From Gammaproteobacteria bacterium TMED1 (lineage in GTDB: Bacteria; Pseudomonadota; Gammaproteobacteria; Pseudomonadales; Azotimanducaceae): a DNA stretch of 33,349 nucleotides. This document shows, one piece after another, positions 10,980 to 14,843 of this stretch; the first letter of the stretch is position 1, and each line of letters starts with the position of its first letter. The notes beneath the pieces were generated by a model, which was not told the origin of the DNA, did no database searches, and saw only the letters and a program-made list of their open reading frames with translations. Where the stretch lies: contig NHBG02000020.1 of NCBI GenBank assembly GCA_002167855.2, positions 393,692 to 427,040 of the forward strand. The letters run 5' to 3'. A program made the position numbers and the translations under genes.

Positions 10980-12542
10980 ATGGCGCTAAAACCAGCACTC
11001 ACCTTAAAAATGGGTCAGCAGCTTAGGATGACCCCTCAACTGCAGCAAGCAATTCGCTTACTGCAGCTTTCGACTGCTGAATTGGAACTGGAGATACAAC
11101 AAGCGCTAGAAACCAATCCAATGTTAGAGGAGCTAGGATTAGAAGATGCCAACAATAGTGATGAACAAATAACGCTAGATAGTCCTCAAACAGAGCAAGA
11201 GAAAGCAGATGAAGAGTCTAGAACACCAGTTGAATATGGAGTTGATAGGGAACCTCCTACGAGTGTGCCAGATCCTGAGATTGATGGCGAGGCTATACTG
11301 GACTCCTCCGAGCGAATCAAAGAAAGCACTATATCTGAGGATCTGCCAGTTGATAGTGTGTGGGAAGACGTCTTCGATGACGGAATCCAATCTACAAACT
11401 TTAGGAACGACAATGAAAGTGGTGGTTCATTCTTAGAAAATAGTGACAGCGTTGGGAACTCTATTCAATCGCACCTATTGGATCAAATCAATTTACTCCG
11501 CCTCTCTGATACCGATGAGTTTATCGCAGTGACTATCATCGATGCATTGGATAGAAATGGAACACTAACAATTACCACTGAAGATGTCCTAGATAGCGCT
11601 CCAACTGAATGGAAGCTCGAACTAGATGAGGTAGAGGCCGTCCTAACCTTAATCCAACACTTAGATCCTATCGGGATTGCATCCCGAAATATCCAGGAGT
11701 GTCTAACCATTCAGCTACGTAGCCTTCCTCCTGATACTCCATGGAAAGAACAAGCTATTAATTTAGTGCGACATTATATTTCCCATCTAGCCAATCGAGA
11801 TTATGGAATGATCGGCAGAAAAGCGAGACTTAAAGAGAGCGATCTTAGAGAGGTAATTGCTTTAATTGTTTCACTGAATCCGAGACCAGGGAGTGATATT
11901 GACGATAGTAAAATTGAATATATCGAACCTGATATTTTCGTATCAAAAAAAAATGATCGCTGGTCAGTCGAGCTAAATCCCAAATCAGCTCCCCGGATAA
12001 GAGTTAATCCGGAGTATGCCTCGCTGATAAGCCCCAAAATGAAGAGTAGCGATAATACTTACCTAAAAAATAACCTACAGGATGCCAGATGGTTTATAAA
12101 TTCTTTACAACAGCGAAATGATACGCTTCTTCGAGTAGCTTCTAAAATCGTGGAATTTCAGCGAGGCTTTTTAGAACATGGTGAGCAAGCTATGAAGCCC
12201 TTAGTTCTTCATGATATTGCAAATGCAGTAGATCTGCATGAATCAACAATCTCACGCGTTACTACACAAAAATATATGCATACTCCCGCTGGGGTTTTCG
12301 AATTAAAATATTTTTTTTCCAGCCACGTAAGTACACATACAGGAGGAGAAGTGTCCTCCACTGCTATCAGAGCCATCATTAAAAAATTAATTTCCGAAGA
12401 AAACCCAAAGAAACCTCTCAGTGATAATAAAATATCAGGCCTGCTTGCTAACCAAGATATCAAAGTTGCCAGACGAACAATTGCAAAGTACAGGGAATCT
12501 TTATTAATCCCCCCCTCGAATGAACGCAAACAACTAATGTGA
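10980..12542 (+). CDS. rpoN: RNA polymerase sigma-54 factor
   Basis: RpoN directs RNA polymerase to -24/-12 promoters that need an enhancer-binding activator. The 520-residue protein has the glutamine-rich activator region I at the start (LKMGQQLRMTPQLQQAIRLL), an acidic region II at about 50-130, then the core-binding and DNA-binding parts. The RpoN box ARRTIAKYRESL lies close to the C-terminus. SRVTTQKYMHTPAGVFELKYFFS (helix-turn-helix region) is clear in the last quarter. It sits between lptB and ptsN as in most proteobacteria, but hpf, normally next, is missing. No strong ribosome site precedes ATG 10980. I saw no convincing -24/-12 promoter in the window. Confidence 0.98.
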   Translation: MALKPALTLKMGQQLRMTPQLQQAIRLLQLSTAELELEIQQALETNPMLEELGLEDANNSDEQITLDSPQTEQEKADEESRTPVEYGVDREPPTSVPDPEIDGEAILDSSERIKESTISEDLPVDSVWEDVFDDGIQSTNFRNDNESGGSFLENSDSVGNSIQSHLLDQINLLRLSDTDEFIAVTIIDALDRNGTLTITTEDVLDSAPTEWKLELDEVEAVLTLIQHLDPIGIASRNIQECLTIQLRSLPPDTPWKEQAINLVRHYISHLANRDYGMIGRKARLKESDLREVIALIVSLNPRPGSDIDDSKIEYIEPDIFVSKKNDRWSVELNPKSAPRIRVNPEYASLISPKMKSSDNTYLKNNLQDARWFINSLQQRNDTLLRVASKIVEFQRGFLEHGEQAMKPLVLHDIANAVDLHESTISRVTTQKYMHTPAGVFELKYFFSSHVSTHTGGEVSSTAIRAIIKKLISEENPKKPLSDNKISGLLANQDIKVARRTIAKYRESLLIPPSNERKQLM

Positions 12543-12678
12543 CCTTGTTAGACTTAGAGGGACATTTTGTTATTTAGCATAGCCTATCCTCGATAAGCTT
12601 GTGGAAAAGCTATCGTGCCGACATATATAATTAGGCGTCGGTCAACACAAACTTTGCAGCAATGAATACTGATCCAAA
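12543..12678 (+). other. rpoN-ptsN intergenic region where hpf is expected
   Basis: These 136 bases are too short for hpf (about 300 bases) and no remnant of it could be read. An imperfect hairpin, CGATAAGCTT / AAGCTATCG with a six-base loop, lies at about 12591-12615 without a T-run. TATAAT lies near 12622, but no -35 partner was found at the right distance. A six-codon frame (12662-12682) ends in ATGA overlapping the ptsN start; it may be chance. Confidence 0.4.
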
Positions 12679-13158
12679 ATGAATATCGAATCTATCCTAA
12701 CGCCAGAGAGAACTTTCGCCAATTTAGAAAGTACAAGTAAAAAACGGGTAATGGAGCAAGCCTCTGGAATTTTGACAGGTGCTGAACCTGGTATTAGCCA
12801 GCAACACCTGTATAGCAAATTAATAGCACGCGAGAAAATTGGCCCTATCGTTATAGGTAAAAGAATCTCGAAACCACATTGCTGGGTAGAATGCTCAAAC
12901 ACTTTTGCCGCTCTCTTTAAGTTAAGTAGAGGTATCGACTGTAGTGCAATCGATGAAATTCCTGTAAGGATCGTTTTAGTTGTAATTGCGCCTCAGAATG
13001 AAGCCAATACTCATCTAGAAATATTAGCTATGCTTGCTAGTAAATTTGGGTCGCCCGTATTTTTTGAAGCAGTCTTTGGGGCAGAGAACGATATAGAGCC
13101 CTATAAAACTGCAATACTCAATCTTGATGAGTATCAAAGGCCTAATTTTCTAAGCTAG
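12679..13158 (+). CDS. ptsN: PtsN, nitrogen-PTS EIIA protein (divergent)
   Basis: PtsN is the terminal phosphoacceptor of the nitrogen PTS (PtsP to PtsO to PtsN) and controls potassium and other regulatory targets according to its phosphorylation state. The 159 residues fit the EIIA family in size and pattern: an early SKKRVMEQAS segment, LYSKLIAREKIG near 44-55, and THLEILAMLASKF near 110. The histidine expected to carry phosphate is H67. Its setting reads RISKPHCWVE, whereas the family normally has GIAIPHxxL, so the loop is unusual. The gene lies between rpoN and rapZ in its normal place. With ptsO damaged downstream, phosphorylation may be lost or supplied by another HPr. The start lacks a clear ribosome site. 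Confidence 0.9.
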   Translation: MNIESILTPERTFANLESTSKKRVMEQASGILTGAEPGISQQHLYSKLIAREKIGPIVIGKRISKPHCWVECSNTFAALFKLSRGIDCSAIDEIPVRIVLVVIAPQNEANTHLEILAMLASKFGSPVFFEAVFGAENDIEPYKTAILNLDEYQRPNFLS

Positions 13159-13225: not shown

Positions 13226-14077
13226 TTGATTACTCTTGTCGTCATAAGTGGTAGGTCAGGGTCAGGGAAAAGCACTGCGCTCCACGTTCTAGAGGATATG
13301 GGATTTTATTGTATCGATAACTTACCCATCACTTTGCTAAAGCCATTAGTAGACCATCTACCTTTGCAACCACGGGTAGCTGTAAGTGTTGATGCACGGA
13401 ATATCGGTGATGACTTGTTGAAATTCCCCGAAATATTGGAGACCTTCAATCCGTCAGATATTCAAGTAAAAGTTGTTTTTCTGGATTCCAGTAGCAACGC
13501 TTTAGTGAAAAGATTTAGTGAGACTAGACGCAAGCACCCCCTAAGTGATGAGGATCGAGATCTTCAAGAAGCATTAGATTTTGAGTCCACTCTACTAGAA
13601 CCAATTTCTGATCTTGCCGATTTAGCAATTGATACGACACTTCTCTCGATGCATGAACTGAGGGATCTTGTTAAATCCAGAGTCGCAATTGTTAACCATG
13701 AATTTGCTTTACTTTTTCAATCGTTCGCTTATAAAACTGGAGTCCCCATTGACGCAGATCTTTTGTTTGACGCTAGGTGTCTCACAAACCCTCACTGGAA
13801 GCCGAATCTAAGGAATCTCACTGGACGAGATACAGCCGTTCAGGCATTTTTGCAAAAGCAACCTGAAGTGGTCTCAATGTATAATGATATATTATCCTAT
13901 CTTGAGTCTTGGTTACCCAAGTTCGAGGCCAACAACCGAAGCTACATGACAGTTGCAATTGGATGTACCGGGGGGCAGCATCGATCAGTCTATATTGTAG
14001 ATAAACTTTACGACCACTTTAAAAATACGTGGAAGAACGTTCAGGTCCGGCACCGAGAACTAAGTAAAACCGAATGA
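13226..14077 (+). CDS. rapZ: RapZ, RNase adaptor / nucleotide-binding protein
   Basis: RapZ in E. coli binds glucosamine-6-phosphate and guides RNase E to the GlmZ small RNA, so setting GlmS and amino-sugar supply; orthologues elsewhere are P-loop proteins of the same locus. The 283-residue product has Walker A GRSGSGKST at 9-17, LEDMGFYCIDNLP right after, and DTRR-like SETRRKHPLSDEDR near 97. The conserved C-terminal domain includes GIPIDADLLFDARCLTNPHW-type residues and GCTGGQHRSVYI near 250. The start is TTG at 13226, supported by GAGGA about eight bases upstream; the nearby ATG (13218) is out of frame. The stop overlaps the ptsO ATG by four bases. Confidence 0.97.
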   Translation: MITLVVISGRSGSGKSTALHVLEDMGFYCIDNLPITLLKPLVDHLPLQPRVAVSVDARNIGDDLLKFPEILETFNPSDIQVKVVFLDSSSNALVKRFSETRRKHPLSDEDRDLQEALDFESTLLEPISDLADLAIDTTLLSMHELRDLVKSRVAIVNHEFALLFQSFAYKTGVPIDADLLFDARCLTNPHWKPNLRNLTGRDTAVQAFLQKQPEVVSMYNDILSYLESWLPKFEANNRSYMTVAIGCTGGQHRSVYIVDKLYDHFKNTWKNVQVRHRELSKTE

Positions 14078-14337
14078 TTTGCTGTAAAACAGTTATCTGC
14101 AATAAGCTTGGACTTCATGCTCGTGCGGCATCTGCTTTCGTTTAAAGAGTAATGAATTTTTCTTCAACAATGAGTGTTATCTATCTTTATAATTCAAGTA
14201 ACGCAAAGAGTATCATGATAATGCTTGAGGCAGGTTATGGGGCCGAGATTGAAAGATGTTTGGAAGATTCTGATGAAGAGATAGTGGTGCGTAAGTTAAT
14301 TGAATTCGTCGAACAAACATTTGGCGAAGCAGAATGA
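14074..14337 (+). pseudogene. ptsO: ptsO (NPr, HPr-like phosphocarrier) interrupted by an in-frame stop
   Basis: From ATG 14074 (ATGA overlap with the rapZ stop) one frame reads MICCKTVICNKLGLHARAAS then AFV, then TAA at 14143-14145. It then continues without a shift through NFSSTMSVIY, SSNAKSIM, EAGYGAEIE and DEEIVVRKLIEFVEQ to TGA 14335-14337. The pieces align residue for residue with HPr: the active-site histidine is in GLHARA, and the stop replaces the residue equivalent to K24 of E. coli HPr (FVK). After the NAKSIM helix two residues are missing relative to HPr. The final stop overlaps the darP ATG, so the original operon spacing is preserved. The product would end at 23 residues. Stop read-through, or a sequencing error at this codon, would be alternatives to a true pseudogene. 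An ATG at 14152 could start only the half lacking the histidine. Confidence 0.85.
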
Positions 14338-14843
14338 CTGAGCATAACTCCATAGACGACCAAGAAGGAATTAGTCCCCATATCAGCAAGTCCCAACAGA
14401 AGAGGGATTTATCAAAACTCAGAGATATGGTCCAAGAACTAATCAATTATACGAATGAAAAAGTCCGCTCATTGGGAGTGGAGGAAATCACTGCCGCAGT
14501 ACTTCTGGCTAGAAGAACGACTAGGGCCACTGTCAAAAAGCGCCAAATCCAATACATCACAAAACTCATCTATAAAAGTGAACCGGGAGTGATCGCGAGA
14601 CTCACGGACCTTTTCGATCAGAAAAATGTCAAAAAAAGATACCAAAAAATAGCACTTTGGAGAGAAGGCTTACTCAAGGATGATGGCGAAACCTTTTCAT
14701 TGATTGTTGCCGACTACCCAAATATAAACCGCCAATATCTTCAACAACTTATTCGTAAAGCGACCATCGAGAAAGAAACAGGAAAAAATGGAAGCGCGTC
14801 TAAAAAACTTTTCCATTTCCTCAAAGAATTAGATGCCTATTGA
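14334..14843 (+). CDS. darP: DarP/YjgA, ribosome-associated 50S assembly factor
   Basis: DarP (formerly YjgA) associates with late 50S precursors and helps maturation near the peptidyl-transferase centre. The 169-residue protein is helical and basic. Family features are the early SKSQQKRDLSKLRDMVQEL, the VKKRQIQYITKLIY stretch near 62-76, and DYPNINRQYLQQLIRKATIEKE near 125, followed by a C-terminal FHFLKELD that matches the FQYLREL ending. Its ATG overlaps the end of the ptsO reading frame, suggesting it was translated by coupling; with ptsO broken it may depend on re-initiation. The 3' end overlaps yhdP tail-to-tail by seven bases. Confidence 0.93.
   Translation: MTEHNSIDDQEGISPHISKSQQKRDLSKLRDMVQELINYTNEKVRSLGVEEITAAVLLARRTTRATVKKRQIQYITKLIYKSEPGVIARLTDLFDQKNVKKRYQKIALWREGLLKDDGETFSLIVADYPNINRQYLQQLIRKATIEKETGKNGSASKKLFHFLKELDAY

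Follow-up and report, generated by a model that had tools for sequence, protein, structure and literature searches.

Probable decay of an orphaned ptsN gene with an eroded phosphorylation loop in a small-genome branch of a genus of Azotimanducaceae

The window analysed here, a stretch of 33,349 nucleotides from Gammaproteobacteria bacterium TMED1, carries a ptsN gene whose product keeps the phosphorylatable histidine in a loop unlike that of its relatives. This raises the question of whether such a PtsN still takes part in a phosphorelay, has been retained for another role, or is being lost. The genome (G000) is a 2.16 Mb assembly in 25 contigs, 96.5% complete. Its ptsN (12679..13158, + strand) starts with ATG and is open over 159 codons, and the + strand carries, in this order, lptC, lptA, lptB, rpoN, ptsN, rapZ, a ptsO remnant and darP, so that ptsN holds its place in the operon rpoN-(hpf)-ptsN-rapZ-ptsO, minus hpf. 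The upstream neighbour rpoN (sigma-54; 10980..12542, + strand), rapZ (13226..14077, + strand; NF003828 343.9 bits, cut-off 244) and the next gene downstream, darP/yjgA (14334..14843, + strand), are all intact.

The product is a genuine PtsN-type IIA protein, with 76.5 bits to the PTS_EIIA_2 domain PF00359 against a curated cut-off of 27. Its AlphaFold2 model reached a pLDDT of 88.5 with an alignment of 15 sequences, which itself favours the IIA-Ntr fold, and the nearest solved structure to this model was E. coli IIA-Ntr 1a6j (TM 0.88/0.93, rmsd 1.0). With the PtsN equivalog model TIGR01419 the window protein scored 66.5 bits at a cut-off of 138.7, by far the lowest value, as seven relatives with P-H-x-R loops scored 106-128.9 bits. 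These relatives also fall under the cut-off, and it was therefore dropped as a marker of decay. A low PtsN score was likewise dropped as a marker of relay loss, since the strongly diverged PtsN of G007 and G040 (L077 and L078; one genus) scores equally low (~71 bits) in genomes where each of the three relay families is matched, and its loop reads AIPHCR.

The phosphorylation loop was compared across 59 distinct PtsN sequences, namely the window protein, that of the sister genome G014 (excluded from the counts) and 57 others, taken from family members and further named Proteobacteria. Among these 57, T57, P66, H67 and R69 are invariant (57/57 each), A64 is found in 56/57 and G62 in 53/57, and the loop of the relatives follows the pattern G-[IV]-A-x-P-H-C-R. 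The window residues 60-71 read G-K-R-I-S-K-P-H-C-W-V-E (codons 60-69 at 12856..12885, + strand), which keeps P66 and H67, the latter at 12877-12879, but fails the conserved G-x-A-x-P-H-x-R loop through R62, S64 and W69. Residue 65 is changed as well, being K in the window and I, L, V or F in the relatives' loops displayed, and codon 57 (12847..12849, + strand) encodes I in place of the T of all 57 relatives. The original prediction that H67 is kept in an altered loop (RISKPHCWVE) was thus correct, as the window's changes were found in 0/57 of the other proteins; the cysteine after P-H is not a change but the norm of the lineage (C68 in 46/57). Besides P66 and H67, the window protein keeps R51 and H112, which we take to be active-site residues in E. 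coli PtsN.

Judged from the alignment, the difference of the window loop exceeds chance. The window protein deviates at 6/21 positions that are at least 90% conserved, the second highest fraction among 67 sequences (median 0.045, G014 excluded), and it is exceeded only by L077 of G007 (7/23). At this level, deviations amount to 4/8 conserved positions in residues 54-70 against 2/13 elsewhere (Fisher p=0.15); the corresponding values are 5/10 against 5/21 at the 80% level (p=0.22) and 3/7 against 0/9 at the 95% level (p=0.06). The erosion of the loop is therefore borne out by the changes at residues 57, 62, 64 and 69, but with Fisher p from 0.06 to 0.22 at the three thresholds, a remodelling specific to residues 54-70 is not established.

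Both partners that would pass phosphate to PtsN are affected in the window genome. The ptsO remnant (14074..14337, + strand) matches PF00381 with 54.5 bits and, as had been predicted, is broken: an in-frame TAA (14143-14145) follows residue 23, and alignments place a six-base deletion, that is, two missing codons, after KSIM. The phospho-His15 precedes the TAA, and the downstream frame of 61 codons is thus unable to serve as a carrier. This broken gene is the only PF00381 match in G000. The enzyme I N-domain PF05524 had no match in G000 or G014 among the 7 genomes of the genus searched; it is present in the other 5/7 and in 107/116 genomes of the order sample. In three congeners examined, ptsP adjoins the 3' side of rppH, an arrangement given as typical in the available text of a review (PMC13104625). 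At this site in G000, the frames of an intact rppH and of the right-hand neighbour are separated by 241 bp on a single contig (L163:6143-6383, G000:C13; two ambiguous bases). What is left there is a 38-residue match to the N-terminus of PtsP (47% identity; E 3e-4 when searched in the 12-kb stretch alone, 6e-4 in a second search) and a weak, non-significant, correctly placed one to the final 32 residues of PtsP (E 0.2). Since a single contig carries both flanks, PtsP is absent through deletion and not through a gap in the assembly. A working PTS-Ntr relay would require PtsP and an intact PtsO, and the window genome has neither.

The gap between rpoN and ptsN (12543..12678, + strand) is without hpf, and the predicted absence of this gene holds genome-wide, with no PF02482 match in G000. 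Neither G014 nor G061 gave a PF02482 match, and therefore the loss of hpf is not simply a consequence of the loss of ptsO or ptsN. The association of hpf loss with relay loss, also part of the original prediction, is weakened, because G061 has open ptsN and ptsO genes and a canonical loop; the loss of hpf looks separate from that of the relay. The rpoN-ptsN gap of L083 also lacks hpf.

The same relay is lost in the MAG MED690 (G014), the second small genome in the genus. Its ptsP is deleted, with ~80 bp left at the site between flanks that share a contig and no PtsP match at E 1, its ptsO is gutted and its ptsN is broken. In this ptsN the start codon is changed, R51-E52 are altered with the loss of one codon, P66-H67 have become L-Y, and two single-base deletions shift the frame; no in-frame stop was found near the start of the gene on inspection of the sequence. 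T57, G62, A64 and R69 are still present in G014, and the four changes of the window protein at these positions therefore post-date the G000/G014 split. At position 65 both genomes carry a change, K in G000 and T in G014. The decay ran in parallel in the two genomes.

The remaining congeners are at other stages. G046, G062 and G063 have stop-free matches to ptsP, ptsO and ptsN as well as canonical loops. In the MAG SAT18 (G061), ptsN and ptsO are open and the loop reads GNGIAIPHCR, and a partial ptsP, matching over 488 residues (74% identity), is cut off by the contig end and contains a single in-frame stop. This stop lies ~57 bases from the contig end in an N-rich stretch (39 N in 7844 bases; L156 3' end, G061:C14), and may be real or an assembly error. 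Because ptsP is partial and has this stop near the contig end, the relay status of G061 is uncertain, which weakens SAT18 as a sister that keeps the relay. G064 was considered as a further loss, as it has no PF00359 or PF00381 match, but its hpf fragment stops at the contig edge, and the gap is therefore read as probably one of assembly; its ptsP is open over 761 codons.

The strength of selection on ptsN was estimated with a joint codon model of four genomes, for which 14 other genes supplied the fixed branch times. A first model with six genomes was saturated and unconverged, gave negative likelihood ratios and was discarded in favour of this one. In the four-genome model the internal branch reached its bound (12.18) and no omega estimate for it was used, and for rpoN, lptA, lptB and lptC, which were without G046, the values of the G046 branch are meaningless. 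For ptsN, omega was 0.195 on the G000 branch, 0.541 on G014, 0.126 on G061 and 0.034 on G046, as compared to 0.065, 0.117, 0.061 and 0.057 for rapZ; on the G000 branch rpoN reached 0.056. The comparison proposed with the original prediction, of ptsN against rapZ and rpoN, thus agrees with relaxed selection, with ptsN changing more quickly in G000 than in the sisters that kept the relay. The excess is modest, since the whole G000 branch is faster (multiplier 1.65) and darP (0.22), the asmA-like gene (0.21) and lptA (0.18) are also at about 0.2 on it; by hand arithmetic, ~0.10 would be expected for ptsN after branch scaling. Tests of the ptsN omega on the G000 branch gave 2dlnL of 5.7 at 0.10, 4.4 at 0.30 and 100 at 1. 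The gene is thus relaxed, and not neutral on average, on this branch, and the open frame together with an omega far below 1 implies that selection acted over most of it. Protein branch lengths were 0.36 for ptsN, 0.12 for rapZ, 0.09 for rpoN and 0.39 for darP. PtsN identity is 48% between G000 and G014 (broken G014 gene included) versus 83% between G061 and G046, whereas RapZ identity is 81% versus 87%; the four-fold-site identity of ptsN is similar in both pairs (0.45 of 20 sites and 0.43 of 58, respectively). Assuming an omega of 0.08 before the loss and of 1 after it, hand arithmetic gives ~0.3 neutral substitutions per codon as the relaxed time needed, over which a ptsN frame would stay stop-free with a probability of 0.18, or 0.011 with an assumed frameshift rate. 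A branch-average omega cannot separate a short full relaxation from a longer partial one.

PtsN without detected partners is also found elsewhere in the order. No PF05524 match was obtained in 9/116 genomes of the order sample, that is, the window's and eight others. Two of these eight (G125, G172) gave no match to PtsN or PtsO and two (G079, G086) matched both, while the remaining four, from two genera (G067 and G134; G075 and G162), have a PtsN match and no PtsO match. Based on the PF05524 and PF00381 searches, these four are candidates for a naturally orphan PtsN (L173, L172, L166 and L168, respectively), and G112, a congener of G075 and G162, has matches to all three relay families. As in the window, the gene lies beside rpoN and rapZ. 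Unlike the window protein, all four keep the canonical loop GVAIPHCR with few deviations (0, 0, 1 and 2 of 21 conserved positions), and an hpf-like frame, recognised by eye, precedes ptsN. In the PtsN of G162, N replaces H at position 112. Within the family, G002, G015, G026 and G045 are also without a PF05524 match and have PtsN and PtsO matches, and here the missing match possibly reflects incompleteness and not relay loss.

Taken together, we propose, with a probability of roughly three in four, that the window ptsN is an orphaned gene in decay, the last open one of a PTS-Ntr relay now disappearing from a small-genome branch of its genus. The relay would run from PtsP over PtsO to PtsN, and without enzyme I and NPr a cell's own relay could not phosphorylate H67. 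Selection on the surface that meets NPr, and probably on the target surface too, would then have been relaxed, and the loop substitutions would have built up in the lineage of the window alone. H67, R51, P66 and H112 would still be there because the decay is recent or incomplete, rather than through continuing phosphotransfer. The product can probably still fold, but most likely retains little function, if any. Against decay stand the open frame, an omega far below 1, the retention of R51, P66, H67 and H112, and a darP that is as long-branched. The relaxed selection on the phosphorelay that had been predicted is supported in this way and extends to the deleted ptsP and to the sister genome.

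The same open frame, the omega of 0.195 and the intact predicted fold would also suit a PtsN that was freed from the relay and retained as a constitutively unphosphorylated regulator, binding a target such as a K+ transporter or a sensor kinase with a reshaped face, and the four apparent orphans in two genera offer a precedent. We consider this unlikely, as those four keep GVAIPHCR with at most 2 of 21 deviations against 6/21 in the window, the ptsN of the sister genome is broken, and the altered residues fall, according to a review, in the PtsO-contact region, with the use of the same face by targets being our supposition. That the protein is a selected, phosphorylation-independent regulator with a contact face remodelled after the loss of PtsP and PtsO seems to us less probable again; if true, this regulator and the canonical-loop orphans would between them mean that PtsN can fulfil its main role in the unphosphorylated state alone. 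The four apparent orphans imply that a role in the unphosphorylated form needs no loss of the loop. Should these genuinely be orphans, the loop can persist in a PtsN that has no relay, and there is then less reason to read the altered loop of the window protein as the mark of an unphosphorylated-only mode; such a mode, put forward in the original prediction, is thus disfavoured as the cause of the loop, also in view of the broken ptsN of G014. Phosphorylation of PtsN by another donor, either an unrelated enzyme or the HPr of a sugar PTS, would account for the retention of H67, R51 and H112. It is nevertheless very improbable given that, in searches for these two families, the sole PF00381 match of G000 is the broken ptsO and PF05524 has none. 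Errors of assembly or consensus in the MAG, to which the ambiguous bases at the ptsP remnant might point, could have produced a single stop, but they leave unexplained the ptsP deletion with both flanks on one contig, the several separate codon changes inside an open frame and the parallel loss in the separately assembled G014, and we give them scarcely any weight. Least credible of all is a normal variant of the lineage, in which the genus would have its own loop style and a functional relay. Such a style does exist in the cysteine after P-H, but the changes at 57 and 69 occur in 0/57 other PtsN proteins, PtsP is absent, and the congeners G061, G046, G062 and G063 are canonical, which refutes this variant for the sampled relatives and answers the question raised with the original prediction of whether relatives with open relay genes have the same loop.

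Compared to known PtsN/IIA-Ntr proteins of E. coli (1a6j), Burkholderia (3urr, 4gqx) and Neisseria (2a0j), the window protein has the fold in common and is alike in its gene position between rpoN and rapZ in the operon and in H67 with R51, P66 and H112. It differs in the changed residues 57, 62, 64, 65 and 69, in the lower TIGR01419 score, and in the lack of PtsP and of an open PtsO. The loss of a signalling relay in a small-genome bacterium is an ordinary, well-documented case, and the accessible part of one report (PMC2405797) describes how specialised bacteria have lost PTS phosphoryl-transfer genes in individual lineages. The event seen here is of the same kind, with relay genes gone where relatives have them; beyond the losses covered in that part, a single genus displays different stages, from relay genes that are all open, to an orphan, eroded ptsN, to a broken ptsN. 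For Liberibacter crescens, PtsP and PtsO are reported with PtsN absent (PMC3885570, available text), and the 2026 review, in its accessible part, names lineages without PtsN (PMC13104625). An E. coli laboratory strain from which ptsN was removed is reported to grow poorly at high K+ (PMC11808508). A full-text literature search, judged by titles and the openings of abstracts, found no description of a PtsN kept without PtsP and PtsO. The stages within the genus suggest that the loop decays after its donor is lost, and the contrast with the canonical-loop orphans makes it testable which part of PtsN conservation serves phosphotransfer and which serves target binding.

In G062, the distance between the ptsN and ptsO matches (L159 / G062:C38:15447-16461) is ~360 bp, which leaves no room for a complete rapZ, and similarly close ptsN and ptsO matches were seen, by match coordinates, in G006, G024, G037, G039, G060, G013 and G045.
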